From: Cinnamomum chago
Lineage: Eukaryota; Streptophyta; Magnoliopsida; Laurales; Lauraceae
DNA length: 64,000 nt
NCBI GenBank assembly: GCA_038049695.1
Contig: CP142460.1
Span: 26,134,001-26,198,000, forward strand
Reading direction: 5' to 3'
Each line of letters opens with the position of its first letter. The first letter of the stretch is position 1. Shown here piece after piece: positions 18,553 to 55,603 of this stretch. Below the pieces are notes generated by a model. It had not been told where the DNA came from and searched no databases. It saw only the letters and a list, made by a program, of their open reading frames with translations. A program made the translations under genes and the position numbers.

Positions 18553-20387
18553 TGAAAGTCCGGGGATCCGAACCCTAGAGGGGGGGTGAATAGGGTGAGC
18601 TTCAATTATGACCAATTTTAACCAATTTTAACTTCTTTAAATCCAACTAGTCACAAGTGGTGATTAAGTAAATAAATGCGGAAGCTTACAAAGACAATCA
18701 CCACAAAGCATACACCATCACACAATGATTTATAGTGGTTCGGCCTCAATGCCTACATCCACTACCGGTTTGTGATCCAACACCCCAACGGATTTCCAAT
18801 ATTTATGCTTTTCAATAGGCTAAGCAATAACCTCTACAATGATGTTTTTCAAGGCTCAACATCAACCTATTACACTATGCTTTTCTTAGGCCAAGCAATA
18901 ACCTCTTCAACCAAAAGGTTGATTATCTCTCTAAATAGTGTCTATAATACACTTGATAGAGATACAATTAAGCTCAATACAATGCCTCTTAAATAGGCGG
19001 ATATGAAAGTGAAAAACTACTACACACACACACACTATGAATGCAAAGATGAATGCTCAATGGTATGCATGATGTCCTCAATCATTTTTAAAATGAAAGC
19101 TCATAAATGTATGCCTAAGGCTTTTGAAAGTTTTAGCTCATAAAAACATTTTATGATTGAGGAAAGAATGCAATTCACATGTTAAAAATAACTTGTAAAA
19201 GATATACATTTGTATCCTAAACAAGTTGTGAAATTCTAAGCACAAAACATGTGATGCATAGGGATGTCAATCAAATCAACAATATAGCTCATAAAACATA
19301 AAAATAGATTTGATTGAAATTAGGGGACAAATCATATGTAATTTTAAATGCAACTTGAAAATGATATACTTATCAAAGCAAAGCAAGTTGTGAAACTTTA
19401 AAACAAAGTTACATAGATTTGTAAAGATGTTGAATCCAAAACATAAGTTATATTTGAAAGTGATTTTTGTATGATGAAAAACAACAACCAAAGATTCAAC
19501 CAAGTATAGGAATCATGTTACATATAATTTCAAAGATGTTTTCATTAACATGATCTACTTAGATATACCAATTTAAGTACTACTTGAATTGAATCATGGT
19601 GATGCATCCAAAACAATAAATCAATTCAAAACATAAAACATGTTAAGGACACAACAAATCATAGTTTATCATGCTAGAAAAGGTTTACCAATAATTAAGC
19701 AAAGCATGAAAACATATGATTAAGGAAAGTAAAGCTTACTTGATGATTTAACTTCATTAATCCAAGCTTTAGCTTTCCTAATGAGCCCTTTCATCCCTTA
19801 GCTCATTCCCCTTTTATTGGCCTCAAAACATCTCAAGGAGGGCCTTAAAATTGCTAACTTTTGACAAAGGAATGAACTAGTATTTATAGCCAAAAAGTGC
19901 CCAACGGCTCTTCCCCGGTCGACCTGGCCTTCACAACGGTAAAAAAATAGACCGTTTGAAAAAGGGCCAACGACACTTTACCCGGTCGACCGCGCAGTGT
20001 GGCCGGTCGACCCCCTGGGACCAAAATTCCCTAAAAATGGTATTTTTCAAAGTATTTTTCTTGGGAACTTTTGGGCCATTGAATCAAGCTTGAAAACATG
20101 TTTTAAATCATTCTAAAGGTTTTAAAACATGAAACATAAAAAGCCTAAAAGGATTTAAAAGATTTAAACCATAGGCTTGCTTGATTTCTAAAACTTATTT
20201 TTTAAAACAAATGCATCCAAGTTAAAAATCAAAACATGCATAAATCAACATTTTTACAAGTCTTAAAAACAATGCATGTTTGCAATCAAGATTTCAAGTT
20301 TTTCTAAAACAATGCATATGTGTGTAAATCAAATGATGCTAGAATGACAATGCATCCATCAAATTGCAATCTACAAAATCCCTAACA
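18553..20387 (-). repeat. LTR (left) of 18553 element
   Basis: 1,835 bp, TGAAAGTCCGGGG...CTAACA on the plus strand. It contains the hairpin tandem repeat (about 18800-18920), a short CA run near 19022 and GGTCGACC palindromes (about 19915-20025). It is close to identical to the right LTR except in the palindrome block and the CA run. Confidence 0.9.
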
Positions 20388-20399
20388 ATCTCCCCCTTT
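20388..20399 (-). promoter_or_regulatory. polypurine tract (minus strand) of 18553 element
   Basis: On the minus strand AAGGGGGAGAT directly precedes the LTR start TGTTAG. It sits in the loop of the inverted repeat CCATCAAATTGCAA / TTGCAATTTGATGG that spans the LTR junction. Confidence 0.8.
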
Positions 20400-21190
20400 G
20401 CAATTTGATGGCAACTCACTCACCACTGAATTTACACTCTAAGTTTTCAGCCCCCCCTAAGCTGGACAAGTCTTGAAATCTCTTGGATGCTTCTCCTCTT
20501 AGCTTGGGCTCTTGTTCTTTTCTTCATTCTTCTTGATGCTTGGAGCTTGATCATTCTTCAAGCTTTCTTTTCATCTTTCTCTTTATAGCCAAGCATCTTC
20601 TTTAGCTCCCAAGCTTTCTCTTCTTTCACTTCTCCCCCTTTGACCATGCCTCTCTCTCCCTTTGGTAAGGTATGCATTCTCTCCCCCTGTAGAAGATCAT
20701 ACAAAATCTCTCCTTAGGAAGCTTGGACATTCTCTTCCCCTTTAGAGAACTTGAATGCTCTCTCCCCCTTTGACATTAAATTGCAAAGGTACCTACACAC
20801 ATGAAATAAGGAAAATACCTTTTAGAAGCACCTGTTAACAAAAGAAATCGAAAATGAAATATATAACAGGTTATCATGTATGGATAGAAGTCTCTAAGGG
20901 TTCAAAGCCAATCCAACGGTGAATTTGATTAAAACTAATACTTCCTATGAAGATTTACACTCCCCCTCAATCCATTCTCTCCTTTTGTCAAACCTTTGAC
21001 AAAGATATAACTATTTGGTTCAAGAAGAAGATGGTTTTACCAATTGAGGGTCAACTTCAAGAGAAGGGTTAGATTCGTTTAACTATAGAGCACAATATGA
21101 TCAAATTACCAAAAGAAAGCAAGGTCAAGGAGAAAAGCGATCATGGATGCCAATTGGAAAAACAAAGAATACTAATTGAGATTCAAAGAT
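20400..21190 (-). other. pyrimidine-rich part of internal domain
   Basis: On the plus strand this is CT-rich with recurring CTCCCCCTTTG and AGCTTG words (20395-20780), then AT-rich. Equivalent to 45180-45960 and 50395-51175. Frames here (such as 45184-45630 in the relative) are low-complexity and have no domain. Confidence 0.6.
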
Positions 21191-23390
21191 AAGACTATAA
21201 AATCAATCACTCTAAAATGGATTTAAAAATATAACTATTAGGAAAAATCCAAATTAGAGCTATCCATGATATAATGGGGTTTACTAAACATAGCATCAAA
21301 TAATTTAACTAAGAAAATCGTATGCTATGAAAGCTTTGAAATCATTTCATTCAATCAATAAATATGACTATTAATGTGCAAAATGAGTGAAATGAAATTC
21401 AAACATGAAGCCAACCTCAACTAATAACCAACCAAGATTATGAATACATAAACATGGTGGTCATGAGATTTACCTATATGAGCAAGAGAGGTGGCAAACA
21501 TGAAAATTATGATGCTAATGGAGTGTGACATGGAACAAATATATTACTATCAAGTTCAATCCAATGTACACAAGGTCTATCACATTCACAAGAAATCAAA
21601 CCAATCGAAAATTGTACCAATTGAATTTGACAACATGATAAAGAGCAAGAATGTGACAAACACAAAATTCCATCAAGCATCATAAATGGATATTCATCAC
21701 TTTTAAAGATATAACTAATGAGCATAGTGATGAACAAGGTAAATTGTAATGCAAAAGGATATAGCTTTGTAATGCATGCAATTATGAAAGTGACTAAATC
21801 ATATGAATTCAACATCTAAGATATCCATCAAACATATAGATATACGAGTAATGGATTTCAAGGAGTTTCATATGATCAAGATCACTACTATGAAGTTGAA
21901 ACATGTATAAGGATGAAATCACTTAGAGAATATACATGAATCAACATCATAACCATCCAAAAAGAAATGACTAGAATGCATAGAGGATGGATTTGAGTTC
22001 TAGTATGGTTTCTACAAATATAACTAAGATCACAACCATACATAGAACGATTTGACATTTGCATAGAGAGGATCAATCAACACTCAAGATCTAACTCATA
22101 CCATATCATCAATAAAGAATATAACTAAGCAAGCACAAGAAGGTATGGAGTTAGTGGGACATCATGGATCGCATAAAGATGAAGATGGATCACATATATG
22201 GATATACCTATTAAGAACAATGGATAATTCCAATTCATCTAAAATGATTTATTAACCTATCATGCAACATCTCCACTCTTAGCAAATGTACTAAACTTAC
22301 AATGCAATAGAAAAAGGATATGAGGTTCATACCAAATGAACTTAGCACATTAAATCACAAATGTACTTAATAAGCTCAAATAATAATAAAACAAAAGATT
22401 TTACTATGAAGCACATAAACAATCATCAATTTGCATTAATGAAAAAAATATATACCAAGTTAGGCACAAACATGCAAATCAATGAAACCATATCCAACCA
22501 TGCAATGTAAGACATCAAAATCAATTTGCATAAAAAGAATGTAACTAAATGAGCAAAGATGCAAATTGTTTGTAAAAATTATTTCCTTCCAAAAGATATA
22601 ATCATAATTAAGCACAATGAAATAAATTCAAGGAAAATGCATCTATAAATACAACCAATAAAGCTTAGAACATTTTCCAAAGTTTTTCAAATCACTTCAA
22701 TATTTGAAATTCCAACAAAGAATCATTTATAGAATTATGAGCAAGTGAATTTGAAAAACAAGAAGTGTACTATTATAAAATTTCAATTTGTATTCTAAAA
22801 ATGACAATAGACACTCATACAAATTGAACACATATTTTCCATACCAAGAGATATAACTTGAAAAAATCAATGGAAAACTTAAATTGCTTCAAATCATTTG
22901 ATTTACAAAAAAGATCTAACTATGACATTCATCAAATGATTTTCCAACATCAATTGATCATGAAAAATTTAGCTATGAAAGCTTTTATAATCACAATCAA
23001 TTGATCATGAATAGATATGCACTACAAGAGATATAACTATATGAACAAAATGCACATCCATCATGAAAATATTGCAATCAAAGGATTTTGAAAACCATGA
23101 GATATAACTTAAAAGTTCATGAAGACAAAATCAAATGATCACAAAGAAACATTGCATTTTAAGAGATGTGACTATAAAGAAACAAAATGCAAATGTAACA
23201 TGACCAACAAAAAGATTTAACTAAAAAGAATAGGTTGGTCTAGAGAGGTTCAAGAGGCCGTAAGGTTAGTCTAATAGTCTACCTTTGAAGATTCACCTAA
23301 GGTCTTGAAAAGGATGTCCTTGACAGTTCACTTGAGGACTCACCAACTCTTGAAGATATAACTTGAAAAAGTCTTAGAGTGGTGCAATGA
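21190..23390 (-). repeat. array of short stem-loops with shared loop motif
   Basis: At least two dozen inverted repeats lie end to end, most with a GATATAACTA variant in a 20-30 nt loop. Examples (arms): 21210-21224/21245-21259, 21289-21296/21322-21329, 21693-21701/21726-21734, 21997-22010/22034-22048, 22091-22102/22142-22154, 22522-22531/22559-22568, 22632-22639/22671-22678, 22683-22697/22743-22758, 22784-22793/22817-22826, 22835-22842/22870-22877, 22891-22902/22931-22942, 23202-23208/23234-23240. The arms differ from one loop to the next. The same array occurs in both internal copies at 45174-48172 and 50389-53387. Confidence 0.85.
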
Positions 23391-23520
23391 TACTATGGGG
23401 AAAATTCATTTTCGATCATAGTGGAAATCTTTAAAAAGATATGCAATAAAACACAATACTAGGGTTCTAATCTAGAAAGGATCAACTTCGGGTTGTTAAG
23501 CCCTAAAATGGAGTAACCTC

Positions 23521-23532
23521 TCTCTGATACTA
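23521..23532 (-). promoter_or_regulatory. primer-binding site of 18553 element
   Basis: The minus strand reads TAGTATCAGAGA just inside the LTR, a slightly altered form of TGGTATCAGAGC, which pairs with initiator tRNA-Met. The relatives at 48159-48170 and 53374-53385 have the exact motif. Confidence 0.8.
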
Positions 23533-23534
23533 AT

Positions 23535-23992
23535 TGAAAGTCCGGGGATCCGAACCCTAGAGGGGGGGTGAATAGGGTGAGCTTCAATTATGACCAATTT
23601 TAACTTTTTTAAATCCAACTAGTCACAAGTGGTGATTAAGTAAATAAATGCGGAAGCTTACAAAGACAATCACCACAAAGCATACACCATCACACAAAGA
23701 TTTATAGTGGTTCGGCCTCAATGCCTACATCCATTACCGGCTTGTGATCCAACACCACACCGGATTTTCACTATTTATGCTTTTCAATAGGCTAAGCAAT
23801 AACCTCTACAATGATGTTTTTCAATGCTCAACATCAACCTATTACACTATGCTTTTCTTAGGCTAAGCAATAACCTCTTCAACCAAAAGGTTGGTTATCT
23901 CTCTAAATAGTGTCTATAATACAGTTGATGGAGATACAATTAAGCTCAATACAATGCCTCTTAAATAGGCAGATATGAAAGTGAAAAACTAC

Positions 23993-24027
<35 letters not shown>

Positions 24028-27000
24028 TGAATGCAAAGATGAATGCTCAATGTGTATGCATGATGTCCTCAATCATTTTTAAAATGAAAGCTCATAAATG
24101 TATGCCTAAGGCTTTTGAAAGTTTTAGCTCATAAAAACATTTATTGTAAGACCCCGACTCGAGTGAACCCGATTAGTGCTAATTTAGTTGCGTGTTAGTG
24201 CTAAACTTGATTAGTGATTTTGGCTAAGTTGAGTTTGGAATAGCTTTTGATTTAGTTTTGGGGATTTTGATTTGCTTTGTGTTAGTGGGGCCCTTTGGGG
24301 GTTCCTTTTCTTGACATTGCATATGTTTGAGGATTTATCGGAGGTTTTTACATTCATGGTTTTAATCTCGTTTTATTGGAATTGTTATTTCATTCAACTT
24401 TCATGTTGATCCCGTGTCCATTTGAGATCCCGAAACCCGATTTCATAGCCTTGAGGGCAAAACAGTCATTGCACACAAAATCTGTACCCAAAACTTGACA
24501 TTCCCAAAACCCGCGAAACATATACTTTTTGGAACTAGAAATTTCGACGATCATTTCTTCCTTCTTCGTCGAATCCATCCGAGGTACCGAAATAGATGAT
24601 ATCAGCCAAACAAGCTCTTTTAGTTGTGGGACCCAACCCCTCATTTGTTAACAAAGGGAAGCCCATTCTCATTCCCACTCACTCTCCATGTTCCAGCACA
24701 AACCAACTGAACTTAGGTTTTCTTGCTTTTCTCTTCTTCTTCTTGCTCTCTCCACCTCTAATCCACCCCCAAGCTTGCACCAATAGGAGAGTTGAGGTCA
24801 TTTTCTTCTTCACCTCCTTGAGAGCTTCCTCTTGATAATGTTGTGGAGAAAACCCTCCATTCCAAGACCTTCTTTGAGCTTGCCATTGCCATTAGAGGAC
24901 CTTGCAAGTAAGTATTCCCCTTCATCTTCTAGATTTGTGTTCCTCTAGCCCTAGGGAAGCTTCATCTTCATTATTGCAAAGTTTCCCTTTCTATTTCATT
25001 GTTTGACTCTTTTAGGGTTTGTTTTTGGGGATTTTTGCTCATAGTTTGGATTCCTTGCTTGGAAGAGTATTAGAGCTTGATCTCATTGTTAGAAGACCCA
25101 AGGCAAGTGGATGTTATGATTTTTATAAGCTTTCAATGATTTTGGTATTTTCCACTCATGCCTATTTATTACATTGGTTTGAAATAAATGCCCACGATAG
25201 AGCTTTGGTAGTGCATTTATGGTAGTGCATTTATGTCTTCTAAGTGTATTGGTGAATGTCATTTAATTTCTTCTTGCTTATATCAAATGTACCCTATTGT
25301 GAAATGGTTTCCTTCTTTCTTTAATTACATTGGATTTGATGTTGATGGATGAGGTGATGGAATGAACCCATTAAGGAGTTGTGGAGAAGTGTAGATAGTT
25401 GCATTGGAGGAACTTTTAGCTCAGTTTTGTGGCAGGGATTAAGTGGATGTGAGGAGAGTGGTTTTGAGGAGGAAAATGACTCAAATCTAAACACAGTGGG
25501 TGTTTCCCGCACCTGGCGGCTAGCCGTCTGGTGACTGGCGGTTAACCGCCAGGTAACCGAACAATCGCGGTTACTTTTCCAGAGAGCAACATTTTCCACC
25601 TGAAAACTCGGTCAGCTCCACGGTTAGCCAGCGGCTAACCGCCGAACCCATCGGCGGCTAACCGCCAGCTAACCGCACCTTGGCGGTTAGCTTTCCAGTA
25701 AGCTGCATTTTGGCAGCCCGCCGTGGTCAGCTGCGTGGTCAACCAGCGGCTAGCCGCCCATCCCAGCGGCGGCTAACCGCCAGGTGACCAAAATTTCCCA
25801 GGTTTCGGAGAGCTCCTCGCTCGAGCGAACTCTCCGGTTCGCTCGAGCGCTGAGCTTTGTCGATCAAAGGAGATTCACTAGGCATTGTATGAGGCCATCC
25901 GAGAAAGAAACCATCTCACGAAGATGTCATTCGAAGTTTTGAAAATTCAAAGTGTATAAGGAGCCCGGAATGTCTCCAAACTCAAGAGTACCAAATTATT
26001 ATTAGATTGACATGCGGGATCCCTATTAACTTCAAATAAATCATGAACCGATGCTTCACTCGAAATTCCGATTGTTTATGGTACTTTGTTGACCCCGAGA
26101 TTTATACTACATGCCTTGTTTTCCCGAAAGTATTGATGTACACTTGAAATGGTTACTTGACCCGAAGTGCATTGCACCACTTGATATGATAGTGTGCCCT
26201 TGAGCAGCCCCGTCTTGCCCGTTTGTTTATATACTTGTACTTGATTTAATTGCATATGTCTCGATTGTATTTGACCTATGAGTCGGCACCACTAAGCTTG
26301 GATAACCCTGTTGGTCTGATCCACCGACTTGGAGATCCCCCTCTTGTCCCGCCAGCTGCAGTTTGGATCCCGCTACCCGGTTATTACCGTGGTCTTGTCC
26401 AGATGCTGCAGATTGCTACTGTGGTCCCCGATGCCCGGCTCGCTACCGTGGTCATGTATAGTATTGTATATGTATATGTATTATATGAGATCCACTGTTT
26501 CTCCTCACCTCGAGTGACTGAGATCAGTACCTAGTTATTGCTCTATTACTTTAGTGATAGAGGACTTAGCTTCGTGTGGTTGCCATCTTGCTTGTTTCCC
26601 ATTTCCTTGGTCACCTTACATGTTTTACATTTGCATCCTTGTAATTGAATAAATGTTTTATCTCTTTCATAGAAATGGTTATTTAAACAGTTTTACATGT
26701 TTTGAAGATAATTTCATTTATTATCATTCTATCGTGTATTTGCCTCCATTTGCCAAACCGTCGTGTTTGACCCACTCTTTGGTACTCAGGTCCCGTTGTC
26801 GGTTATCTCGAGGAGGAGCTCGAGGAGGCGGTCGTAGAACCACAACAGTTAGTTGAGTGGCGTGCTGACGACGTCATGTAGACGTTCGGTCGCTTCGAGA
26901 GACTTCATATTTTTTTTGGGGAACTGTTTAACCATTCTTTTGATTGGTCTTTTGGGTTATATTGGCCTTTGTTGGCCCCTAATTTTTGGGAATGTAATTA

Positions 27001-28574
27001 AATGATATTTGTATAAACTTTAACTTACTTTGGGGTAACATGCTATAGATCATTGCTCTTTCTGATACAGTATCTTTATACTTGTGATATTGTTTATGAC
27101 CAAGGATGGTTTGACTATTTGATTTGCTACACGCTTCCGCACTTAAAAAGAAATGTTCATTGATGGTTGTGATATCCTCACCGCGGACACCTGTGGGAAA
27201 TTAAATAAGTTGTATATTGTCGATGTAGAATCCTTCAATCATCATTCACTAATGTCCCGATCCCGGATTAGGATTCCCGGTCCGGGGTCGCGACATTTAT
27301 GATTGAGGAAGGAATGCAATTCACATGTTAAAAATAACTTGTAAAAGATATACATTTGTATCCTAAACAAGTTGTGAAATTCTAAGCACAAAACATGTGA
27401 TGCATAGGGATGTCAATCAAATCAACAATATAGCTCATAAAACATAAAAATAGATTTGATTGAAATTAGGGGACAAATCATATGTAATTATAAATGCAAC
27501 TTGAAAATGATATACTTATCAAAGCAAAGCAAGTTGTGAAACTTTAAAACAAAGTTACATAGATTTGTAGAGATGTTGAATCCAAAACATAAGTTATATT
27601 TGAAAGTGATTTTCTTATGATGAAAAACAACAACCAAAGATTCAACCAAGTATAGGAATCATGTTACATATAATTTCAAAGATGTTTTCATTAACATGAT
27701 CTACTTAGATATACCAATTTAAGTACTACTTGAATTGAATCATGGTGATGCATCCAAAACAATAAATCAATTCAAAACATAAAACATGTTAAGGACACAA
27801 CAAATCATAGTTTATCATGCTAGAAAAGGTTTACCAATAATTAAGCAAAGCATGAAAACATATGATTAAGGAAAGTAAAGCTTACTTGGTGATTTAACTT
27901 CATTAATCCAAGCTTTAGCTTTCCTAATGACCCCTTTCATCCCTTAGCTCATTCCCCTTTTATTGGCCTCAAAACATCTCAAGGAGGGCCTTAAAATTGC
28001 TAACTTTTGACAAAGGAATGAACTAGTATTTATAGCCAAAAAGTGCCCAACTGCTCTTCCCCGGTCGACCTGGCCTTCACAACGGTAAAAAAATAGACCG
28101 TTTGAAAAAGGGCCAACGGCACTTTACCCGGTCGACCGCGCAGTGTGGCCGGTCGACCGTGCCCCTGGGCCGGTCGATCGGCAACACTGCCGGTCAACCC
28201 CCTGGGACCAAAATTCCCTAAAAATTGTATTTTTCAAAGTATTTTTCTTGGGAACTTTTGGGCCATTGAATCAAGCTTGAAAACATGTTTTAAATCATTC
28301 TAAAGGTTTTAAAACATGAAACATAAAAAGCCTAAAAGGATTTGAAAGATTTAAACCATAGGCTTGCTTGATTTCTAAAACTTATTTTTTAAAACAAATG
28401 CATCCAAGTTAAAAATCAAAACATGCATAAATCAACATTTTTACAAGTCTTAAAAACAATGCATGTTTGCAATCAAGATTTCAAGTTTTTCTAAAATAAT
28501 GCATATGTGTGTAAATCAAATGATGCTAGAATGATAATGCATCCATCAAATTGCAATCTACAAAATCCCTAACA
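23535..28574 (-). repeat. LTR (right) of 18553 element, split by solo LTR
   Basis: About 1.88 kb of LTR when the nested solo LTR (24145-27295) and its duplicated target are removed. A CA microsatellite at about 23995-24027 is much longer than its counterpart near 19022. The GGTCGACC block (about 28060-28205) is also longer than in the left LTR. Confidence 0.85.
24145..27295 (+). mobile_element. solo LTR, Tekay-like large-LTR family
   Basis: 3,151 bp, TGTAAGACCCCGAC...GGTCGCGACA, with perfect 5-bp target duplication TTTAT (24140-24144 and 27296-27300). It shares many modules with the chromovirus LTR in the same order: a GGCTAGCC/GGTTAACC palindrome block (about 25500-25800), CACTAAGCTTGGA and TGATCCAC (about 26290), a GACCGTCGTGTTTGACC-like segment then TACTCAG (about 26759-26789), a short DDV-ending frame (26813-26881), ATTGGCCTTTGTTGGCC (about 26961), and GCTACACGCTTCCG with CCTCACCGCGG (about 27126-27187). 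Confidence 0.9.
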
Positions 28575-34484: not shown

Positions 34485-35702
34485 CAAAACCATGTCAAAA
34501 ATATACTTTTCGGAAACTAGATATTTTGAGGATCGTTTTATCCTTTTTCGTCGAATTCATCCGAGGCCCGCATGAACATGTTTTCATTGATACAAGATTT
34601 GGCCATTTGGGCCCCACTTGCAAGTGCTTTAAGTCAACTCTCTTCTCTTTCCCTCCTTTCACTCTCAACCCAAACCCTAGAGCAACCAAGAGGAGAAACC
34701 TTTTCCCTCCATTTTATTTCTCTTGAATGATCAAGCTAGAAGCCTCCAAATGGAATTCTAAGGCCATCATCTCCTTCCTCTCATCTCAAGCTTTCTATTG
34801 ATGTCCTTTTCTTGGAAGTTAGAAGTGAACAAGCTCTCCATTGTCTTCATTTCTCTTGTTTGACCTTTTCTAAGTAAGAACTCCAACCCATCTCCTTAAT
34901 GAAGTCTTTTTAGTCCCTTAAAATCTTGTTTTTCATGTTTACAAACCCTTTTGGTAAAATGGGTTTCTTGTTTTCAAGATTGAGTGAGTTTTTGTGTGGT
35001 TTTCATGGGTTTTGTAGTTATTGGGATTAGCTTGAGTGGAAGTGCTTGAAGAGGTTTGTGGCATCTTTGACTAAGGCAAGTAACCAATCTAGGATGGATG
35101 TGTTAGCATGTGTGCATTTCATTTGTTTTCCTTGCACTCTTCTCATTCATTGAAGAATTTGGGGGATTTTTTTATTATTGGAGAATGGGAATAGAATGTC
35201 TCAATTTGTGTTTTGAAATGTGTGTTTCACCCTTGGAGAGCATGGAGGCTCAGGGAGTGCAGGTGGAATGAGAAATAAGAAGAAAGGAAGAAGAAAATGT
35301 GAAAAAAAATCTGAACTCAGCTGCATTTCCCGTACAGTAGCGGTCAGCCACTGGTCAGCTGGCGGCTAGCCGAAATCCCCATTTCGGTTAACCGTGAGCT
35401 GACCGAGCTCAGCGGTTCCCTTTCCAGAAGTTGGTTTTTCGACAGTGGGTTTCGGTCAGCTTGACGGTTAGCTAGCGGCTAGCCGCCATACCCCATTTCG
35501 GCTAACCGCTGGCCAACCGAACGTTTTCGGCTCCTTTTCCAGAGAGCTAAGTTTCAGACCTGGATTTCCAGCGGTCCGCCTGTCTGTCAGCTAGCGGCTA
35601 GCCACCAGATCCTAGTTCGGCTAGCTGGCACCTGACAGCGAGGTGACCGAAATTGACAAATTACCTGTTTTGAAGAGTATTTGCAAGAATGAAAACTAGA
35701 AC

Positions 35703-38327: not shown

Positions 38328-38399
38328 GAGGAGGAGCGTCCGGAGGAGGCTCTTGAGCCACCCTCAGTCCGAGAGTGCCAACCCGACGATGTCATCTAG
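38328..38399 (+). other. short conserved acidic frame in chromovirus 5' LTR
   Basis: Reads EEERPEEALEPP then ends ECQPDDVI before TAG. The matching frame in the 3' LTR ends REWQPNDVI (stop 61988-61990). The solo LTR at 24145 ends VEWRADDVM (stop 26879-26881) and the solo LTR at 56383 ends REWSADDVE (stop 59107-59109). Each lies just after a CTCAG or TAG acceptor-like site. Function unknown. Confidence 0.5.
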
Positions 38400-39960: not shown

Positions 39961-40149
39961 CACAACTTCAGAACCAAGGGAATAGAAACCAACAGCAGAG
40001 ACAAGCAGCTCCTCAGAATCAAGCACCGATTCAAGTTAGACCACCTCAGCAACAGCAGCAGGCTAGGCCACCAGCACAGAATCAGAATGCTCGTCCTCCA
40101 CAACAGAACAGACATGGCCAAGGAAGGCAAAATCAAGCACCGAATAGAC

Positions 40150-40650: not shown

Positions 40651-40659
40651 GATATCCCC

Positions 40660-42200: not shown

Positions 42201-42204
42201 CAAG

Positions 42205-42957: not shown

Positions 42958-45173
42958 TGAAAGTCCGCGGGATCCGAACCCTAGAGGGGGGGTGAATAGG
43001 GTGAGCTCCAATTATGACCAATTTTAATCAATTTTAACTTCTTTAAAACAAACTAGTCACAAGTGATGATTAATCATACAAGATGCGGAAGCTAACAAAA
43101 GAATCACCACAAAGCAATCACCATCACACAAGGATTTATAGTGGTTCGGCCTCAATGCCTACATCCACTACCGGCTTGTGAACCAACACCCCACCGGATT
43201 TCCACTATTTATGCTTTTCAATAGGCTAAGCAATAACCTTTACAATATGCTTTTCAAGGCTTAGCAATAACCTTTACAATGATGTTTTTCAAGGCTCAAC
43301 ATCAACCTATACACTATGCTTTTATAGGCTAAGCAATAACCTCTTCAACCACAAGGTTGGTTATCTCACTAAGTTAGTGTCTATAATACACTTGATGGAG
43401 ATTCAATTAAGCTCATTACAATGCCTCTTAATTAGGCGGATATGGAAGTGAAAAACTAACTCACACAAACACTTAATGAATGCAAAGATGTATGCTCATG
43501 ATGTGTGTGTGTGATGTCCTCAATCATTTTGAAAATGAAAGCTCATAAAGTATGCCTAAGGCTTTTGAAAGTTTTAGCTCATGAAAACATTTATGATTGA
43601 GGAAGGAATGCAAGTCACATGTTAAAAGTAAAAACTTGTTAATGATGTCAAAGATACACAAGTTGTATGAAATGAATTAGCTCTAAACATGTGATGCATA
43701 GGGATGTCAATCAAATCAACAATGAAGCTCATAAATCATAAAAATAGATTTGATTGAAATTAGGGGACGAATCATATGTAATTATAAATACAACTTGAAA
43801 AAGATATACCTATCAAAGTAAGGCAAGTTGTGAAACTTTAAAACAATAATACACATATGATTTGTAAAGATGTTGAATCCACAACATAAGATATATTTTG
43901 AAAGAGATTTTCTTATGATGAAAGACAACACCCAAAGATTCAACCAAGTATATGAATCATGTTACATATAATTTCAAAGATTATTTCATTAACATGATCT
44001 ACTTAGATTTCCCAAATAAAGTACTACTTGGATTGAATCAATGGTGATGCATCCAAAACAATAGATCAATTCAAAATATAAAACATGCTAGGGATACAAC
44101 ACATCATAGGTTAACATGCTACAAAAGATTTATCAAAGATAAAACAAAACATGAAAACATATGATTTGTAAAGAAGTTGAATCCAAAACATAAGATAGTT
44201 TTGAAAGTGATTTTCTTATGTTGGAAAACAACAACCAAAGATTCAACCAAGTATATGAATCATGTTACATCTAATTTCAAAGATGTTTCCATTAACATGA
44301 TCTACCTAGATTTACCAAAGATTAAGTACTATTTGTATTGAATCAATGGTGATGTATCCAAAACAATAAATCAATTCAAAACATAAAACATGTTAAGGAC
44401 ACAACACAAACATAGTTTATCATGCTACAAATGATTTACCAAAAATAAAACAAAGCATGAAAACATATGATTAAGGAAAGTAGAGCCTACTTGGTGATTT
44501 AACTTCATTAATCCAAGCTTTAGCTTTTCTAATGATCCCCTTCATCCCTTAGTTCATTTCCCTTCTATTTGCCTCAAAACCCCTCAAGGAGGGCCTTAAA
44601 ATTCCCAACTTTTGGCAAAGGAAAGAACTCATATTTATAGCAAAAAGTGCCCAACGGCTAGTCCTCGGTCGACCTGCAAACAGGTCTCGGTCGACCGGGA
44701 TCACACAACGGTCAGAAATATGACCGTTGGTGCGCCAGGCCACTTTCTGCCTGCAGTGTTCCCGGTCGACCGGGACCCCTGGGCCGGTCGACCGGCCACA
44801 CTGCAGGGACCAAAATTCCCACTTTTGCATGTTTAAAAGATTTTCTTTGTGGAACATTTTGGGCCATAAAATCAAGCTAGAATACATGTTCCAAATCATT
44901 CTAAGGGGTTTAAAAACATGAAACACACAAAGCCTAAAATGATTCAAAACTTTAAAACCAAAGGCTAGCTCGATTTCTAAAACTCTTTTCAAAATCAAAT
45001 GCATCCAAGTTTTAAAAGCAAATCATGCATAAATTGAAACTTTTACAAATCTTAAAAGCAATGCATGAATAAAACAAGATTTCAAGTTTATCTAAATCAA
45101 TGCAAGTGTGTAAATCAAATGATGCTAGAATGATTATGCATCCATCAAATTGCAATCTACAAAATCTCTAACA
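42958..45173 (-). repeat. LTR 1 of tandem array
   Basis: 2,216 bp. Hairpin tandem repeat at about 43210-43360; GGTCGACC palindrome block at about 44665-44795. Long minus-strand frames such as 44549-45004 recur in every LTR copy and have no recognisable domain. Confidence 0.95.
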
Positions 45174-45198
45174 ATCTCCCCCTTTGCAATTTGATGGA
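45141..45198 (-). repeat. hairpin enclosing LTR/PPT junction
   Basis: Arms TCCATCAAATTGCAA (45141-45155) and TTGCAATTTGATGGA (45184-45198) are perfect complements. The 28-base loop contains the LTR end (45173) and the polypurine tract (45174-45183). The same structure is at 50356-50413 and, with 14-base arms, at the 20387 junction of the other complete element. Confidence 0.9.
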
Positions 45199-48172
45199 AA
45201 CTTACTTATCATTGAATTAACACAACAAGTCTTCAGCTCCCCCTCAGCTGGACAAGTCTTGAAATCTCCTTCTTGGATGCTTCTCTTAGCTTGGGCTCTT
45301 TTCTTCATTCTTCATGATGCTTGGTGCTTGATCATTCTTCAATCTTTCTTTCTTTATGGCCAAGCATCTTCTTTAGCTCCAAGCTTTCTTTCTTCTATTT
45401 GCTCTCCCCCTTTGACCATGCCTCTCTCTCCCTTTGGCAAGATATGCATTCTCTCCCCTTGTAGAAGATCATACACAACTCTCCCCTTAGGAAGCTTGGA
45501 CATTCTCTTCACCCTTTTGAGAACTTGCATACTTTCTCCCCCTTTGCCATTAAATTGCAAAGGTACCTACACACATGAAACAAGGAAAATACCTTTAGTA
45601 GCACCTGTTAACAAAAGAAATCGAAAGTGAATTACATAACAGGCTATCATGTGTGGAATTAATCTCTAAGGGCTCAAAGGCAATCCTAGGGTCAATTTGA
45701 TCAAAACTAATACTTCCTATGAAGGTTTACACTCCCCCTCAATCCATTCTCTTCTTTTGTCAAACTTTTGACAAGATATAACTATTTGGTTCAAGAAGTA
45801 GATGGTTTAACCAAATGAGGGTCAACTTCAAGGAAATGATTAGATCCATTTAACTATAAGGCTCATATGATCAAATTGCCAAAAGAAAGCAAGGTCTAAA
45901 GGGAAAAGCAATCATGGATATCAATTGGAAAAACAAAGACTACCAATTGAGATTTAAAGATAAGTCTATTAAACACCATCACTCTAAAATGGATTTAAAG
46001 ATATAACTATTTGGAAAAATCCAAATTAGAGCTATCCATGATATGGGGTTTGCTCAACATAGCATCAAATAATTTAACTATGAAAATCATATGCTATGTA
46101 AGTTTTGAAATCATTTCATTCAAACAATAAATATGACTATTAATGTGCAAGAATGAGTGAAATGAAATTCAAGCATGAAGCCTACCTCAACTATTAACCA
46201 ACCAATATTATGAACACATAAACATGGTGGTAATGAGATATACCTATATGAGCAAGAGAGGTGGCAATCATGAACATTATGATGCTAATGGAGTGTGACA
46301 TAGAACAAATATATTACTATCAAGTTCAATCCAATATACACATGGTTTATCACATTCACAAGAAATCAAATCAATCGAAAATTATACAAATTGAAACCAA
46401 TTGAATTTGACAACTTGATAAAGAGCAAGAATGTGGCAAACACAAAGTTCCAACAAGCATCATAAATAGATATTCATCACTTTTAAAGATATGACTATTG
46501 AGCATAGTGATGAACAAGAGAAATTGCAATGCAAAAAGATATGACTTGGTAAAGCATGCAATTTTCAAAGTGTCAAAATCATATGAATTCAACACCTAAG
46601 ATATCCATCAAATATATAGAAATACAATGAATGGATTTCAAGGAGTTTCATATGATCAAGACCACTACTATGAAGTTGAAACATGTATAAGAATGACATC
46701 AATTAAAGAATACACATGAATCAACATCATAACCATCCAAATAGAAATGACTATAAGACATAGAGGATGGATTTGAGTTCTAGTATGGTTTCTACAAAAT
46801 ATAATAAATATCACACCCATACATAGAACAAATTGACATTTGCATTGAGAGGATCAATCAACACTCAAGATCTAACTCATACCATATCATCAATAAAAAC
46901 ATAACTTTGTAATCACAAGAAGGTATGAAGTTAAAGGTAGCAATCTATCATGCAACATCTCCACTCTTAGCAAAAGTACTAAGCTTACAATGCAATGGAA
47001 AAGGATATGAGGTTTAAACCAAATGAACTTAGCACATAAAATCACATATGTACTTAAAAAGCTCAAAAACAAGATTTTACTCTAAAGCACATAAACAATC
47101 ATCAAAATGCATTAATGAGAATATACCAAGTTAGGCACAAACATGCAAATCAATGAAACCATATCCAACCAAGCAATGTAAGATATCAAAATCAATTTGC
47201 ATAAAGAATGTAACTAAATGAGCAAAGATGCAAATTGTTTGTAAAAATTATTTCCTTTCAAATGATATAATCATAATTAGGCACAAGGAAATAAATTCAA
47301 GGAAAATGCTTCTAGAAATACAACCAACAAAGCTTAGAACATTTTCCAAAGTTTCTCAAATCACTTCAATATTTGAAATTCCAATAAAGAATCATTTAGA
47401 ATTAAGAGCAAGTGATTTTGAAAAACAAGAAGTGTACTATTGTAAAATTTTCAATTTGTAAAACAATAGACACTCACAAATTTTCCATACCAAGAGATAT
47501 AACTTGAAAAACAATGGAAAACTTAAATAGATTCAAATCATTTGATTTAAAAAAAGGATCTAACTATGACAAACATCAAATGATTTTCCAATATCAATTG
47601 ATCATGAAAAAACTAGCTATGAAAGCATTTGTAATCATAATCAATTGATCATGAATAGACAAGCACTACAAGAGATATAACTATATGAACAAAATGCAAA
47701 TCCATCATGAAAGTATTGCAATCAAATGATTTTGAAAACCAAGAGATATAACTTAAAAGTTCATGAAGACAAAATCAAATGATCACAAAGAAACATTGCA
47801 TTTTAAAAGATGTGACTTTAAAGAAACACAATGCAAATGTAACATTACCAACAAATAGATATAACTAAAAAGAATAGGTTGGTCTAGGGAATCAAGATCT
47901 TAAGGTTAGTCTAAATGTGTACCAATGAAGATGCACCTAAGGTCTTGAAAAGGATGCCTTGAGAGATCACTTAGAGGACTCACCAACTCTTGGAGATATG
48001 ACTTAAAAAGGTCTTAGAGTGGTGCAATGAGGCTAGGGGAAATTTCATTTTCAAACATAGTGGAAATCTTTAAAAAGATATGCAATAAATCACAACACTA
48101 GGGTTCTAATCTAGCAAGGATCAACTTCGGGTTGTTAAGCCCTAAAATGGAGTGACCCGCTCTGATACCAAT
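45174..48172 (-). repeat. internal domain 1: stem-loop array
   Basis: 2,999 bp without a recognisable protein. The right two-thirds (about 45,970-48,060) has the same run of stem-loops with GATATAACTA-type loops as 21190-23390, including the CATAGCAT/ATGCTATG, TTCATCACT/AGTGATGAA, CAATTTGCAT/ATGCAAATTG and AAATCATTTGAT/ATCAAATGATTT pairs. A primer site lies at 48159-48170. Confidence 0.9.
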
Positions 48173-50388
48173 TGAAAGTCCGCGGGATCCGAACCCTAGA
48201 GGGGGGGTGAATAGGGTGAGCTCCAATTATGACCAATTTTAATCAATTTTAACTTCTTTAAAACAAACTAGTCACAAGTGATGATTAATCATACAAGATG
48301 CGGAAGCTAACAAAAGAATCACCACAAAGCAATCACCATCACACAAGGATTTATAGTGGTTCGGCCTCAATGCCTACATCCACTACCGGCTTGTGAACCA
48401 ACACCCCACCGGATTTCCACTATCTATGCTTTTCAATAGGCTAAGCAATAACCTTTACAATATGCTTTTCAAGGCTTAGCAATAACCTTTACAATGATGT
48501 TTTTCAAGGCTCAACATCAACCTATACACTATGCTTTTATAGGCTAAGCAATAACCTCTTCAACCACAAGGTTGGTTATCTCACTAAGTTAGTGTCTATA
48601 ATACACTTGATGGAGATTCAATTAAGCTCATTACAATGCCTCTTAATTAGGCGGATATGGAAGTGAAAAACTAACTCACACAAACACTTAATGAATGCAA
48701 AGATGTATGCTCATGATGTGTGTGTGTGATGTCCTCAATCATTTTGAAAATGAAAGCTCATAAAGTATGCCTAAGGCTTTTGAAAGTTTTAGCTCATGAA
48801 AACATTTATGATTGAGGAAGGAATGCAAGTCACATGTTAAAAGTAAAAACTTGTTAATGATGTCAAAGATACACAAGTTGTATGAAATGAATTAGCTCTA
48901 AACATGTGATGCATAGGGATGTCAATCAAATCAACAATGAAGCTCATAAATCATAAAAATAGATTTGATTGAAATTAGGGGACGAATCATATGTAATTAT
49001 AAATACAACTTGAAAAAGATATACCTATCAAAGTAAGGCAAGTTGTGAAACTTTAAAACAATAATACACATATGATTTGTAAAGATGTTGAATCCACAAC
49101 ATAAGATATATTTTGAAAGAGATTTTCTTATGATGAAAGACAACACCCAAAGATTCAACCAAGTATATGAATCATGTTACATATAATTTCAAAGATTATT
49201 TCATTAACATGATCTACTTAGATTTCCCAAATAAAGTACTACTTGGATTGAATCAATGGTGATGCATCCAAAACAATAGATCAATTCAAAATATAAAACA
49301 TGCTAGGGATACAACACATCATAGGTTAACATGCTACAAAAGATTTATCAAAGATAAAACAAAACATGAAAACATATGATTTGTAAAGAAGTTGAATCCA
49401 AAACATAAGATAGTTTTGAAAGTGATTTTCTTATGTTGGAAAACAACAACCAAAGATTCAACCAAGTATATGAATCATGTTACATCTAATTTCAAAGATG
49501 TTTCCATTAACATGATCTACCTAGATTTACCAAAGATTAAGTACTATTTGTATTGAATCAATGGTGATGTATCCAAAACAATAAATCAATTCAAAACATA
49601 AAACATGTTAAGGACACAACACAAACATAGTTTATCATGCTACAAATGATTTACCAAAAATAAAACAAAGCATGAAAACATATGATTAAGGAAAGTAGAG
49701 CCTACTTGGTGATTTAACTTCATTAATCCAAGCTTTAGCTTTTCTAATGATCCCCTTCATCCCTTAGTTCATTTCCCTTCTATTTGCCTCAAAACCCCTC
49801 AAGGAGGGCCTTAAAATTCCCAACTTTTGGCAAAGGAAAGAACTCATATTTATAGCAAAAAGTGCCCAACGGCTAGTCCTCGGTCGACCTGCAAACAGGT
49901 CTCGGTCGACCGGGATCACACAACGGTCAGAAATATGACCGTTGGTGCGCCAGGCCACTTTCTGCCTGCAGTGTTCCCGGTCGACCGGGACCCCTGGGCC
50001 GGTCGACCGGCCACACTGCAGGGACCAAAATTCCCACTTTTGCATGTTTAAAAGATTTTCTTTGTGGAACATTTTGGGCCATAAAATCAAGCTAGAATAC
50101 ATGTTCCAAATCATTCTAAGGGGTTTAAAAACATGAAACACACAAAGCCTAAAATGATTCAAAACTTTAAAACCAAAGGCTAGCTCGATTTCTAAAACTC
50201 TTTTCAAAATCAAATGCATCCAAGTTTTAAAAGCAAATCATGCATAAATTGAAACTTTTACAAATCTTAAAAGCAATGCATGAATAAAACAAGATTTCAA
50301 GTTTATCTAAATCAATGCAAGTGTGTAAATCAAATGATGCTAGAATGATTATGCATCCATCAAATTGCAATCTACAAAATCTCTAACA
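48173..50388 (-). repeat. LTR 2 of tandem array (recombinant pattern)
   Basis: 2,216 bp. At 48424 it has the base of LTR 3, whereas at 50217, 50282 and 50312 it has the bases of LTR 1. This pattern is expected if this LTR was formed by a crossover between the two outer LTRs. Confidence 0.9.
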
Positions 50389-53387
50389 ATCTCCCCCTTT
50401 GCAATTTGATGGAAACTTACTTATCATTGAATTAACACAACAAGTCTTCAGCTCCCCCTCAGCTGGACAAGTCTTGAAATCTCCTTCTTGGATGCTTCTC
50501 TTAGCTTGGGCTCTTTTCTTCATTCTTCATGATGCTTGGTGCTTGATCATTCTTCAATCTTTCTTTCTTTATGGCCAAGCATCTTCTTTAGCTCCAAGCT
50601 TTCTTTCTTCTATTTGCTCTCCCCCTTTGACCATGCCTCTCTCTCCCTTTGGCAAGATATGCATTCTCTCCCCTTGTAGAAGATCATACACAACTCTCCC
50701 CTTAGGAAGCTTGGACATTCTCTTCACCCTTTTGAGAACTTGCATACTTTCTCCCCCTTTGCCATTAAATTGCAAAGGTACCTACACACATGAAACAAGG
50801 AAAATACCTTTAGTAGCACCTGTTAACAAAAGAAATCGAAAGTGAATTACATAACAGGCTATCATGTGTGGAATTAATCTCTAAGGGCTCAAAGGCAATC
50901 CTAGGGTCAATTTGATCAAAACTAATACTTCCTATGAAGGTTTACACTCCCCCTCAATCCATTCTCTTCTTTTGTCAAACTTTTGACAAGATATAACTAT
51001 TTGGTTCAAGAAGTAGATGGTTTAACCAAATGAGGGTCAACTTCAAGGAAATGATTAGATCCATTTAACTATAAGGCTCATATGATCAAATTGCCAAAAG
51101 AAAGCAAGGTCTAAAGGGAAAAGCAATCATGGATATCAATTGGAAAAACAAAGACTACCAATTGAGATTTAAAGATAAGTCTATTAAACACCATCACTCT
51201 AAAATGGATTTAAAGATATAACTATTTGGAAAAATCCAAATTAGAGCTATCCATGATATGGGGTTTGCTCAACATAGCATCAAATAATTTAACTATGAAA
51301 ATCATATGCTATGTAAGTTTTGAAATCATTTCATTCAAACAATAAATATGACTATTAATGTGCAAGAATGAGTGAAATGAAATTCAAGCATGAAGCCTAC
51401 CTCAACTATTAACCAACCAATATTATGAACACATAAACATGGTGGTAATGAGATATACCTATATGAGCAAGAGAGGTGGCAATCATGAACATTATGATGC
51501 TAATGGAGTGTGACATAGAACAAATATATTACTATCAAGTTCAATCCAATATACACATGGTTTATCACATTCACAAGAAATCAAATCAATCGAAAATTAT
51601 ACAAATTGAAACCAATTGAATTTGACAACTTGATAAAGAGCAAGAATGTGGCAAACACAAAGTTCCAACAAGCATCATAAATAGATATTCATCACTTTTA
51701 AAGATATGACTATTGAGCATAGTGATGAACAAGAGAAATTGCAATGCAAAAAGATATGACTTGGTAAAGCATGCAATTTTCAAAGTGTCAAAATCATATG
51801 AATTCAACACCTAAGATATCCATCAAATATATAGAAATACAATGAATGGATTTCAAGGAGTTTCATATGATCAAGACCACTACTATGAAGTTGAAACATG
51901 TATAAGAATGACATCAATTAAAGAATACACATGAATCAACATCATAACCATCCAAATAGAAATGACTATAAGACATAGAGGATGGATTTGAGTTCTAGTA
52001 TGGTTTCTACAAAATATAATAAATATCACACCCATACATAGAACAAATTGACATTTGCATTGAGAGGATCAATCAACACTCAAGATCTAACTCATACCAT
52101 ATCATCAATAAAAACATAACTTTGTAATCACAAGAAGGTATGAAGTTAAAGGTAGCAATCTATCATGCAACATCTCCACTCTTAGCAAAAGTACTAAGCT
52201 TACAATGCAATGGAAAAGGATATGAGGTTTAAACCAAATGAACTTAGCACATAAAATCACATATGTACTTAAAAAGCTCAAAAACAAGATTTTACTCTAA
52301 AGCACATAAACAATCATCAAAATGCATTAATGAGAATATACCAAGTTAGGCACAAACATGCAAATCAATGAAACCATATCCAACCAAGCAATGTAAGATA
52401 TCAAAATCAATTTGCATAAAGAATGTAACTAAATGAGCAAAGATGCAAATTGTTTGTAAAAATTATTTCCTTTCAAATGATATAATCATAATTAGGCACA
52501 AGGAAATAAATTCAAGGAAAATGCTTCTAGAAATACAACCAACAAAGCTTAGAACATTTTCCAAAGTTTCTCAAATCACTTCAATATTTGAAATTCCAAT
52601 AAAGAATCATTTAGAATTAAGAGCAAGTGATTTTGAAAAACAAGAAGTGTACTATTGTAAAATTTTCAATTTGTAAAACAATAGACACTCACAAATTTTC
52701 CATACCAAGAGATATAACTTGAAAAACAATGGAAAACTTAAATAGATTCAAATCATTTGATTTAAAAAAAGGATCTAACTATGACAAACATCAAATGATT
52801 TTCCAATATCAATTGATCATGAAAAAACTAGCTATGAAAGCATTTGTAATCATAATCAATTGATCATGAATAGACAAGCACTACAAGAGATATAACTATA
52901 TGAACAAAATGCAAATCCATCATGAAAGTATTGCAATCAAATGATTTTGAAAACCAAGAGATATAACTTAAAAGTTCATGAAGACAAAATCAAATGATCA
53001 CAAAGAAACATTGCATTTTAAAAGATGTGACTTTAAAGAAACACAATGCAAATGTAACATTACCAACAAATAGATATAACTAAAAAGAATAGGTTGGTCT
53101 AGGGAATCAAGATCTTAAGGTTAGTCTAAATGTGTACCAATGAAGATGCACCTAAGGTCTTGAAAAGGATGCCTTGAGAGATCACTTAGAGGACTCACCA
53201 ACTCTTGGAGATATGACTTAAAAAGGTCTTAGAGTGGTGCAATGAGGCTAGGGGAAATTTCATTTTCAAACATAGTGGAAATCTTTAAAAAGATATGCAA
53301 TAAATCACAACACTAGGGTTCTAATCTAGCAAGGATCAACTTCGGGTTGTTAAGCCCTAAAATGGAGTGACCCGCTCTGATACCAAT
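50389..53387 (-). repeat. internal domain 2: stem-loop array
   Basis: A second copy of 45174-48172, offset by 5,215 bases, with no difference noticed by eye. Primer site at 53374-53385. Confidence 0.95.
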
Positions 53388-55603
53388 TGAAAGTCCGCGG
53401 GATCCGAACCCTAGAGGGGGGGTGAATAGGGTGAGCTCCAATTATGACCAATTTTAATCAATTTTAACTTCTTTAAAACAAACTAGTCACAAGTGATGAT
53501 TAATCATACAAGATGCGGAAGCTAACAAAAGAATCACCACAAAGCAATCACCATCACACAAGGATTTATAGTGGTTCGGCCTCAATGCCTACATCCACTA
53601 CCGGCTTGTGAACCAACACCCCACCGGATTTCCACTATCTATGCTTTTCAATAGGCTAAGCAATAACCTTTACAATATGCTTTTCAAGGCTTAGCAATAA
53701 CCTTTACAATGATGTTTTTCAAGGCTCAACATCAACCTATACACTATGCTTTTATAGGCTAAGCAATAACCTCTTCAACCACAAGGTTGGTTATCTCACT
53801 AAGTTAGTGTCTATAATACACTTGATGGAGATTCAATTAAGCTCATTACAATGCCTCTTAATTAGGCGGATATGGAAGTGAAAAACTAACTCACACAAAC
53901 ACTTAATGAATGCAAAGATGTATGCTCATGATGTGTGTGTGTGATGTCCTCAATCATTTTGAAAATGAAAGCTCATAAAGTATGCCTAAGGCTTTTGAAA
54001 GTTTTAGCTCATGAAAACATTTATGATTGAGGAAGGAATGCAAGTCACATGTTAAAAGTAAAAACTTGTTAATGATGTCAAAGATACACAAGTTGTATGA
54101 AATGAATTAGCTCTAAACATGTGATGCATAGGGATGTCAATCAAATCAACAATGAAGCTCATAAATCATAAAAATAGATTTGATTGAAATTAGGGGACGA
54201 ATCATATGTAATTATAAATACAACTTGAAAAAGATATACCTATCAAAGTAAGGCAAGTTGTGAAACTTTAAAACAATAATACACATATGATTTGTAAAGA
54301 TGTTGAATCCACAACATAAGATATATTTTGAAAGAGATTTTCTTATGATGAAAGACAACACCCAAAGATTCAACCAAGTATATGAATCATGTTACATATA
54401 ATTTCAAAGATTATTTCATTAACATGATCTACTTAGATTTCCCAAATAAAGTACTACTTGGATTGAATCAATGGTGATGCATCCAAAACAATAGATCAAT
54501 TCAAAATATAAAACATGCTAGGGATACAACACATCATAGGTTAACATGCTACAAAAGATTTATCAAAGATAAAACAAAACATGAAAACATATGATTTGTA
54601 AAGAAGTTGAATCCAAAACATAAGATAGTTTTGAAAGTGATTTTCTTATGTTGGAAAACAACAACCAAAGATTCAACCAAGTATATGAATCATGTTACAT
54701 CTAATTTCAAAGATGTTTCCATTAACATGATCTACCTAGATTTACCAAAGATTAAGTACTATTTGTATTGAATCAATGGTGATGTATCCAAAACAATAAA
54801 TCAATTCAAAACATAAAACATGTTAAGGACACAACACAAACATAGTTTATCATGCTACAAATGATTTACCAAAAATAAAACAAAGCATGAAAACATATGA
54901 TTAAGGAAAGTAGAGCCTACTTGGTGATTTAACTTCATTAATCCAAGCTTTAGCTTTTCTAATGATCCCCTTCATCCCTTAGTTCATTTCCCTTCTATTT
55001 GCCTCAAAACCCCTCAAGGAGGGCCTTAAAATTCCCAACTTTTGGCAAAGGAAAGAACTCATATTTATAGCAAAAAGTGCCCAACGGCTAGTCCTCGGTC
55101 GACCTGCAAACAGGTCTCGGTCGACCGGGATCACACAACGGTCAGAAATATGACCGTTGGTGCGCCAGGCCACTTTCTGCCTGCAGTGTTCCCGGTCGAC
55201 CGGGACCCCTGGGCCGGTCGACCGGCCACACTGCAGGGACCAAAATTCCCACTTTTGCATGTTTAAAAGATTTTCTTTGTGGAACATTTTGGGCCATAAA
55301 ATCAAGCTAGAATACATGTTCCAAATCATTCTAAGGGGTTTAAAAACATGAAACACACAAAGCCTAAAATGATTCAAAACTTTAAAACCAAAGGCTAGCT
55401 CGATTTCTAAAACTCTTTTCAAAATCAAATGTATCCAAGTTTTAAAAGCAAATCATGCATAAATTGAAACTTTTACAAATCTTAAAAGCAATGCATTAAT
55501 AAAACAAGATTTCAAGTTTATCTAAAACAATGCAAGTGTGTAAATCAAATGATGCTAGAATGATTATGCATCCATCAAATTGCAATCTACAAAATCTCTA
55601 ACA
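53388..55603 (-). repeat. LTR 3 of tandem array
   Basis: 2,216 bp. It differs from LTRs 1 and 2 at 55432, 55497 and 55527 and shares the base at 53639 with LTR 2. Confidence 0.95.

Follow-up and report, generated by a model that had tools for sequence, protein, structure and literature searches.

A retrotransposon internal domain arrayed with hairpins that differ in their stems and share a loop motif

An LTR retrotransposon of Cinnamomum chago, hereafter element A, carries in its non-coding internal domain an array of hairpins whose stems are specific to each unit and whose loops share one short motif. This shared-loop pattern is confirmed in element A and repeated in a second copy, B, within the same window (the whole 64,000-nt stretch of contig CP142460.1 that we analysed). 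We regard the array as real and unusual, within a type of element that is already known, and we propose a mechanism for it. Our best overall explanation, a tentative one drawn from sequence, is that hairpins of the sense RNA would present the motif to a trans-acting protein, most plausibly the Gag of a helper element.

Results

Element A is flanked on both sides by the 5-bp target duplication AAACC. Read on the minus strand, the first feature of its internal domain is a PBS for initiator tRNA-Met and the last is AGGGGGAG-AT adjoining the LTR, and we therefore take minus as its sense strand (Table 1). In copies B and C the PBS junction is exactly ATTGG + TATCAGAGC, from which element A differs at two positions. 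All three internal domains end in ...AGGGGGAGAT, after which the LTR begins TGTTAG, and each holds five AGGGGGAG copies within 580 nt. Palindromic GGTCGACC boxes number three per LTR in A, four in B, four in D and two in E, the latter two being solo LTRs of related families; the core of these boxes is that of the Vitis row in Table 3 of PMC2829016, as far as that paper was available. The LTR of element A also has a run of at least seven C about 27 nt from its end, likened to the poly-C-rich integrase signal of Sireviruses by description, not by consensus letters.

Sireviruses (Ty1/copia: SIRE1, OPIE, PREM-2, Maximus) are defined through non-coding motifs of this sort (Bousios 2010, PMC2829016, in its available parts). 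Shared with them are the PBS junction ATTGGTATCAGAGC, which is exact in B, the AGGGGGAG tract followed by AT/TG, the five PPT copies, the inverted repeat flanking the PPT and the GGTCGACC palindromes of the LTR. The elements here differ in having no gag-pol-env, and in bearing 2–4 palindrome boxes per LTR where the available parts of PMC2829016 give at least eight CGG-CCG boxes per Sirevirus element.

Nothing recognisable is encoded in the internal domain of element A. Eight of its 11 ORFs of at least 50 aa were scanned against Pfam; none gave a match above the cut-off, and the sole match was sub-threshold (E 0.5). With a longest ORF of 102 aa, a protein-coding internal domain was rejected, and a gag-pol region is absent by the same ORF measures. 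We therefore class the element as a non-autonomous derivative of Sirevirus type and do not count it among the Sireviruses proper. No tRNA genes were found, and a known RNA family was likewise rejected, with 0 of 4227 Rfam families reaching the gathering score in the window. The earlier note's picture of a non-autonomous LTR element is upheld by the LTRs, PBS, PPT and target duplications, and its picture of an internal region lacking recognisable protein by the ORF scan.

LTRs of 1835 nt (A) and 2216 nt (B), non-coding internal domains of 3147 and 2999 nt, a PBS, a PPT and 5-bp target duplications are the attributes of LARDs (large retrotransposon derivatives). Anatomy and descent very probably make element A, like the B/C tandem, a LARD-type non-autonomous LTR retrotransposon on a Sirevirus (Ty1/copia) chassis. 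Since replication and integration sites are kept and nothing recognisable is encoded, such an element must be mobilised in trans. That PBS, PPT, TG...CA ends and 5-bp target duplications are intact, and that the LTRs of B/C are near-identical, shows that mobilisation in trans was recent. C is so close to B that we excluded it from the count of independent copies; comparisons of the array between copies rest on two, A and B, whose internal domains are 91.2% identical over aligned columns (about 9% diverged).

The window as a whole is plant-like DNA, dense in retrotransposons. The B/C tandem sits between Ty3-type polyprotein ORFs, one at 39888-42780 (protease, RT, RNase H, integrase) and one at 55564-56274 (integrase C-terminal and chromo domains). 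Segments 34485-38780 and 59742-62370 are paralogous and about 95–97% identical; the first contains solo LTR E and the second shows the empty site. An ORF at 8920-9504 matches Transposase_32, a putative plant transposon protein, at 40.5 bits, below the cut-off of 45. GC-rich palindromic repeats of the CGGCTAACCGCC type occupy 25510-25795 and have related counterparts around 35341-35654 and 60575-60893; in a ranking by inverted repeats, 25001-27000 comes high as well. Exact LTR and PPT patterns found no match in viral-contig or genome-contig collections that include no plant genome. Two motif patterns matched 3 and 18 viral contigs; these 21 were rejected as relatives and ascribed to chance, having at most 2–5 motif hits per 2 kb, where the internal domain has 6–9 in each kb.

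Table 1. Coordinates of element A, its hairpin array, and related copies in the window
Feature	Position	Strand	Remarks
Element A, LTR retrotransposon	18553-28574	-	Sense strand is minus
Element A 3' LTR (in sense)	18553..20387	-	1835 nt; TG...CA ends
Three GGTCGACC palindrome boxes (Sirevirus RM type) in element A LTR	19917..20012	-	Table 3 of PMC2829016 (available part)
Inverted repeat bordering PPT/LTR junction	20356..20411	-	Perfect 14-bp arms 20356-20369 / 20398-20411; feature described in PMC2829016 (available part)
Internal domain, element A	20388..23534	-	3147 nt; longest stop-to-stop ORF 102 aa
Terminal polypurine tract AGGGGGAG, then AT/TG at LTR	20390..20397	-	Consensus in PMC2829016 (available part)
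Four additional AGGGGGAG tracts upstream of terminal PPT, element A	20632..20967	-	Total five
Whole motif/hairpin array	21003..23364	-	29 plus-strand motif sites at score at least 5.5, 24 at score at least 7
Motif hairpin	21218..21251	-	7-bp stem
Motif hairpin	21289..21329	-	8-bp stem
Motif hairpin	21342..21395	-	8-bp stem
Motif hairpin	21693..21734	-	9-bp stem
Motif hairpin	21953..21990	-	6-bp stem
Motif hairpin	22003..22041	-	8-bp stem
Motif hairpin	22097..22147	-	6-bp stem
Segment of about 93 nt with one motif (22200)	22158..22253	-	Stem score 7; in A, missing from B
Motif hairpin	22522..22568	-	10-bp stem
Motif hairpin	22579..22625	-	7-bp stem
Motif hairpin	22632..22678	-	8-bp stem
Hairpin with degenerate loop motif	22782..22828	-	Perfect 12-bp stem in A; mostly deleted in B
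Motif hairpin	22835..22877	-	8-bp stem
Motif hairpin	22891..22942	-	12-bp stem
Motif hairpin	22949..23005	-	10-bp stem
Motif hairpin	23084..23132	-	7-bp stem
Motif hairpin	23152..23192	-	9-bp stem
Motif hairpin	23202..23240	-	7-bp stem
PBS junction, element A	23521..23534	-	ATTAG + TATCAGAGA; Sirevirus consensus from PMC2829016 (available part)
Element A 5' LTR (in sense)	23535..28574	-	Split by another repeat, about 24145-27292
Second insertion B/C, LTR-internal-LTR-internal-LTR	42958..55603	-	Units 99.9% identical; target duplication GATAC
Tandem duplication of about 303 nt within B LTR	43839-44483
Internal domains of B/C, bearing the same array	45174-48172 and 50389-53387	-	2999 nt
Solo LTR D, related family	~3926-5667
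Solo LTR E, related family	~35703-37461

Inverted repeats are abundant in the internal domain. Between 21190 and 23390, counting loops of 15–40 nt, arms of at least 8 nt form 14 inverted repeats, about eight times the 1.7 ± 1.2 expected from 60 dinucleotide shuffles (maximum 6). At arms of at least 7 the count is 20 against 6.2 (maximum 11), and at arms of at least 6 it is 36 against 22.7; shuffles there reach 39, so many of the six-base stems are chance. The excess fades as loops lengthen: for arms of at least 8, loops of 41–66, 67–92 and 93–118 nt give 5, 3 and 1 repeats against 2.1, 1.5 and 1.6 expected. The five hairpins named earlier are all present where they were placed, including GACCAAC/GTTGGTC (23202, 23234), and the observation is confirmed. 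An excess of inverted repeats by itself is found also in the LTRs and in the unrelated stretch 1-2000 (the latter 21 against 7.0 at arms of at least 7); what is specific to the array is the motif common to its loops.

This motif reads GATATAACT on the plus strand and AGUUAUAUC in the sense RNA. Its plus-strand consensus is A-G-A-T-A-T-A-A-C-T-A, strongest at A2, T3, T5, C8 and T9, with information focused on positions 0–10 and little beyond. Matches to GATATAACTA with at most one mismatch number 36 in the window against 4.84 expected (100 shuffles, maximum 10). A weight matrix built from 13 loops of element A finds, at scores of at least 7, 24 sites on the plus strand of A and 19 on that of B, with none on the minus strand of either; as the matrix favours the copy on which it was trained, the counts in B and those by one or two mismatches are the fairer checks. 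From the 29 sites in A scoring at least 5.5, 27 were used for stem scores, 26 for information content, motif-window folding, unpaired probability, wobble scores and loop geometry, and 25 for divergence between A and B. Those left out were set aside by hand as overlapping, weakest or, for the divergence, absent from B. The shared-motif hairpins claimed for 21190-23390 hold up, though that span does not, the first motif lying outside it at 21003.

Motif and hairpin coincide in both copies. We chose 25 non-overlapping hairpins (arms of at least 6) blind to the motif in A and again in B. The motif fell in the loop of 15 in A, where 4.5 were expected and none of 341 shifts reached that number, and of 13 in B, where 3.5 were expected and none of 322 did; this is about three-fold the frequency given by shifted motif positions. 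A simple match to GATATAACT with at most two mismatches places it in 15 of 25 loops in either copy. In A, 16 motif hairpins are clear; their loops span 20–39 nt, and the motif sits off-centre in them, at medians of 5.5 nt from the preceding arm and 10.5 nt from the following one (plus strand). These loops, and perfect arms of 6–12 nt, correct the sizes first reported.

The stems belong to their own units. Around 27 motif sites of A the mean stem score is 7.44, against 5.66 ± 0.21 for shuffled flanks (60 shuffles, maximum 6.11), 5.43 when partners are swapped between sites (702 combinations) and 5.43 at 150 non-motif positions. Own flanks pair better than all of these, so stems are unit-specific and loops shared, which bears out the earlier observation that stems differ from hairpin to hairpin around one motif. 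Scores reach at least 7 at 17 of the 27 sites and are weak at the remaining ten, and ten of the 25 blind hairpins of A hold no motif match. The continuous run of inverted repeats described earlier is therefore an array of lesser regularity.

The swapped-partner control also speaks to an origin by tandem duplication, in which the units would be decaying duplicates of one ancestral hairpin and their stems non-functional remnants. Adjacent units do sometimes share stem words (those at 22429 and 22522 both have ATTTGCAT/ATGCAAAT), and the segment at 22158..22253, present in A only, is a whole-unit gain or loss, one unit having come or gone as a module. Decaying duplicates, however, lose pairing first, and here stems have diverged between units while remaining paired within them; they have also changed less than the loops. 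We hold this origin to be quite improbable. By eye, the counterpart in B (47450-47490) of the hairpin at 22782..22828 has a shorter stem, AATTTGT/ACAAATT, and its downstream partner differs from that of A by one base.

Stems changed about half as much as their surroundings between A and B. Taking stem positions from stems of either copy (a symmetric union, arms of at least 6), 23 of 493 stem positions differ, against 71 of 802 in loops and 96 of 964 in the rest (p 0.0056 against loops, p 0.00045 against loops plus rest). Arms of at least 7 and at least 8 give equal rates with weaker p values (0.011 and 0.031). This two-fold effect replaces a withdrawn three-fold one (12 of 412 against 181 of 1885, p 1e-6), which was computed on stems perfect in A, a choice that masks whatever changed along the lineage of A itself. 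Among chance repeats whose loops measure 60–214 nt and whose arms are at least 6, 6–12% of positions differ; one class of them changed less than the stems (3 of 140 at arms of at least 7, 1 of 60 at arms of at least 8), which makes this control noisy. The motif itself, at 20 of 274 positions changed against about 8–11% nearby, is barely more conserved than its surroundings.

Covariation, the check proposed in the earlier note, did not turn out in its favour. Among 247 comparable pairs there is no compensatory double change between A and B, and all stem changes are single, mostly breaking or weakening pairs. Conservation of pairing itself is thus not proven, and we read the lower rate of change as moderate evidence that the array stems are constrained between A and B.

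Hairpins occur in the LTRs as well, and they behave differently. Several LTR stretches are hairpin-rich (in E, 36490-37461 has 10 at arms of at least 8 against 1.4), and LTR hairpins of A, D and E have loops of about 24–30 nt that are in part GATATAC-like. In six LTR comparisons their stems change at the rate of the rest, giving no sign of stem constraint. Double changes in LTR stems keep Watson-Crick pairing in 43 of 75 cases, a raw count from comparisons that overlap. One hairpin in the duplication within the B LTR, ATCATGTTA/TAACATGAT, has the same stems and differing loops across the two copies; there, 2 of 43 stem, 9 of 62 loop and 22 of 195 other positions changed, which is not significant (p 0.19).

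Such LTR hairpins, abundant and with unconstrained stems, are what one might expect if template switching, in reverse transcription or in replication, kept producing reverse-complement copies, so that perfect unit-specific stems would form and be repaired with no selection on RNA. The mechanism has been published for RNA genes (PMC8794818, in its available parts), the array stems are perfect Watson-Crick with few wobble pairs, and the tandem duplication of 303 nt in an LTR, together with the gain or loss of whole units, marks the sequence as restless. Left unexplained by it are the presence of one motif, on one strand, in loops and at similar distances from the arms; nor does any multi-base paired change separate A from B in the 247 pairs. 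We consider a purely mutational origin unlikely.

Predicted folding places the motif in the open. By partition function its unpaired probability is 0.56 in the sense strand, where base composition predicts 0.38, and 0.64 in the antisense, where it predicts 0.46; the arms flanking it have 0.22 and 0.27 (sense). Whichever strand is read, the alignment folds at lower energy than its column-shuffled versions, with mean z over 12 windows of -3.4 for sense and -3.2 for antisense, and the sense strand folds lower in 13 of 26 motif windows. Wobble counts give A.C a small excess over G.T (4:1 and 4:2), and allowing G-U on either strand brings no gain in the excess of own over swapped stems. The folding and G-U tests are indecisive, and sense RNA is not favoured over antisense. 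We prefer the sense transcript solely as the replicating RNA.

That antisense folds as well as sense also suits a different partner, namely a host protein for which the array would serve as a platform, in RNA or as DNA, with a part in export, stability or a block on translation, or as the site of a transcription factor that binds the motif in double-stranded DNA. A short, strand-exclusive motif resembles host binding sites, and a cis-regulatory role is ascribed to the palindromic boxes of Sireviruses (PMC2829016, PMC10760457). A double-stranded DNA site, though, would need no unit-specific complementary arms on either side, and the array lies downstream of the PBS, not in the LTR promoter. A host platform in place of Gag strikes us as somewhat unlikely.

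Dicer-like enzymes use duplexes of roughly 20 bp, and neither stems of about 20 bp or more nor a known family, as miRNA precursors have, were found here. With perfect arms of just 6–12 bp and no Rfam match at gathering score, it is highly improbable that the hairpins give rise to small RNAs in the manner of miRNA precursors, or are targeted for silencing. Such a role has been proposed for structured Sirevirus LTRs, and excess small RNAs are reported on those rich in palindromes (PMC10760457, citing Bousios 2016, available parts).

Discussion

Among the readings offered earlier, an RNA scaffold or an array that binds protein agrees best with the data, as the motif is predicted to be unpaired between paired flanks and stems change less than loops; covariation and the LTR hairpins without stem constraint do not back it. 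For an element mobilised in trans, the task of its own is to have its RNA chosen by helper proteins. Packaging signals are usually located downstream of the PBS. Free stems around a fixed loop, arrayed at that place, are the arrangement to expect where one RNA-binding protein has many sites. We propose that the array acts as RNA in the sense transcript, 3' of the PBS, where each hairpin would display the unpaired motif to a trans-acting RNA-binding protein, most plausibly helper Gag/nucleocapsid. Many weak sites may sum to efficient packaging, perhaps also dimerisation; stem sequence would be free so long as pairing holds, and the loop motif would be kept. From its sequence, the array is probably a functional RNA array. 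Gag packaging specifically, suggested by analogy, is possible and short of probable. More doubtful still is the fullest form of the proposal, in which the whole internal domain of a parasite would have become a concatemer of at least two dozen hairpins that recruit protein, their stems individual and their loop code common to all, and would out-compete the autonomous Sirevirus helper for Gag.

Dispersed packaging signals of STNV and HBV offer the closest likeness in form, with many stem-loops, varied stems and a common recognition motif in the loop; those of HBV share the loop motif RGAG (PMC7612645, available parts). They differ in binding a known coat or core protein and in being spread over coding genomes, whereas the array here lies in non-coding RNA and its protein partner is putative.

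Among retrotransposons, LARDs such as Sukkula of grasses likewise have long LTRs and a long internal domain without protein, with mobility in trans assumed, and are described as having "well-conserved RNA secondary structures" (PMC7215508). The element here differs by its Sirevirus-type termini, and the available passages of that paper do not mention hairpins with individual stems arrayed about a common loop motif. Nor do the available parts of PMC2829016 describe, inside Sireviruses, arrayed hairpins whose loops share an AT-rich motif. miRNA-like structure is concentrated in Copia LTRs, with palindromic Sirevirus LTRs cited as a case (PMC10760457, available parts). The LTR palindromes of maize Sireviruses (Bousios 2016, via PMC10760457) are likewise clustered and predicted to form RNA structure; they are identical, GC-rich repeats in the LTR, unlike the unique-stem, internal array.

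That no described retrotransposon has such a domain, as first claimed, was accordingly too strong, with conserved LARD folds and palindrome-rich Sirevirus LTRs in print (PMC7215508, PMC10760457, PMC2829016, available parts). These and the LARD kind of element are known. Apparently new is the unique-stem, shared-loop array, an internal arrangement for which we found no description in the open-licence literature, some of our searches being narrow.

How non-autonomous LTR elements capture proteins is little understood. If the full proposal is true, a multivalent packaging domain would be of a kind undescribed for retrotransposons. If the stems instead arise via template switching, the array would be a natural record of hairpin birth. 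Should the hairpins bind helper Gag, they would tie retrotransposons to the dispersed packaging signals known from RNA viruses, and their free stems and fixed loop would make a natural variant set for reading the recognition code of plant retrotransposon Gag.
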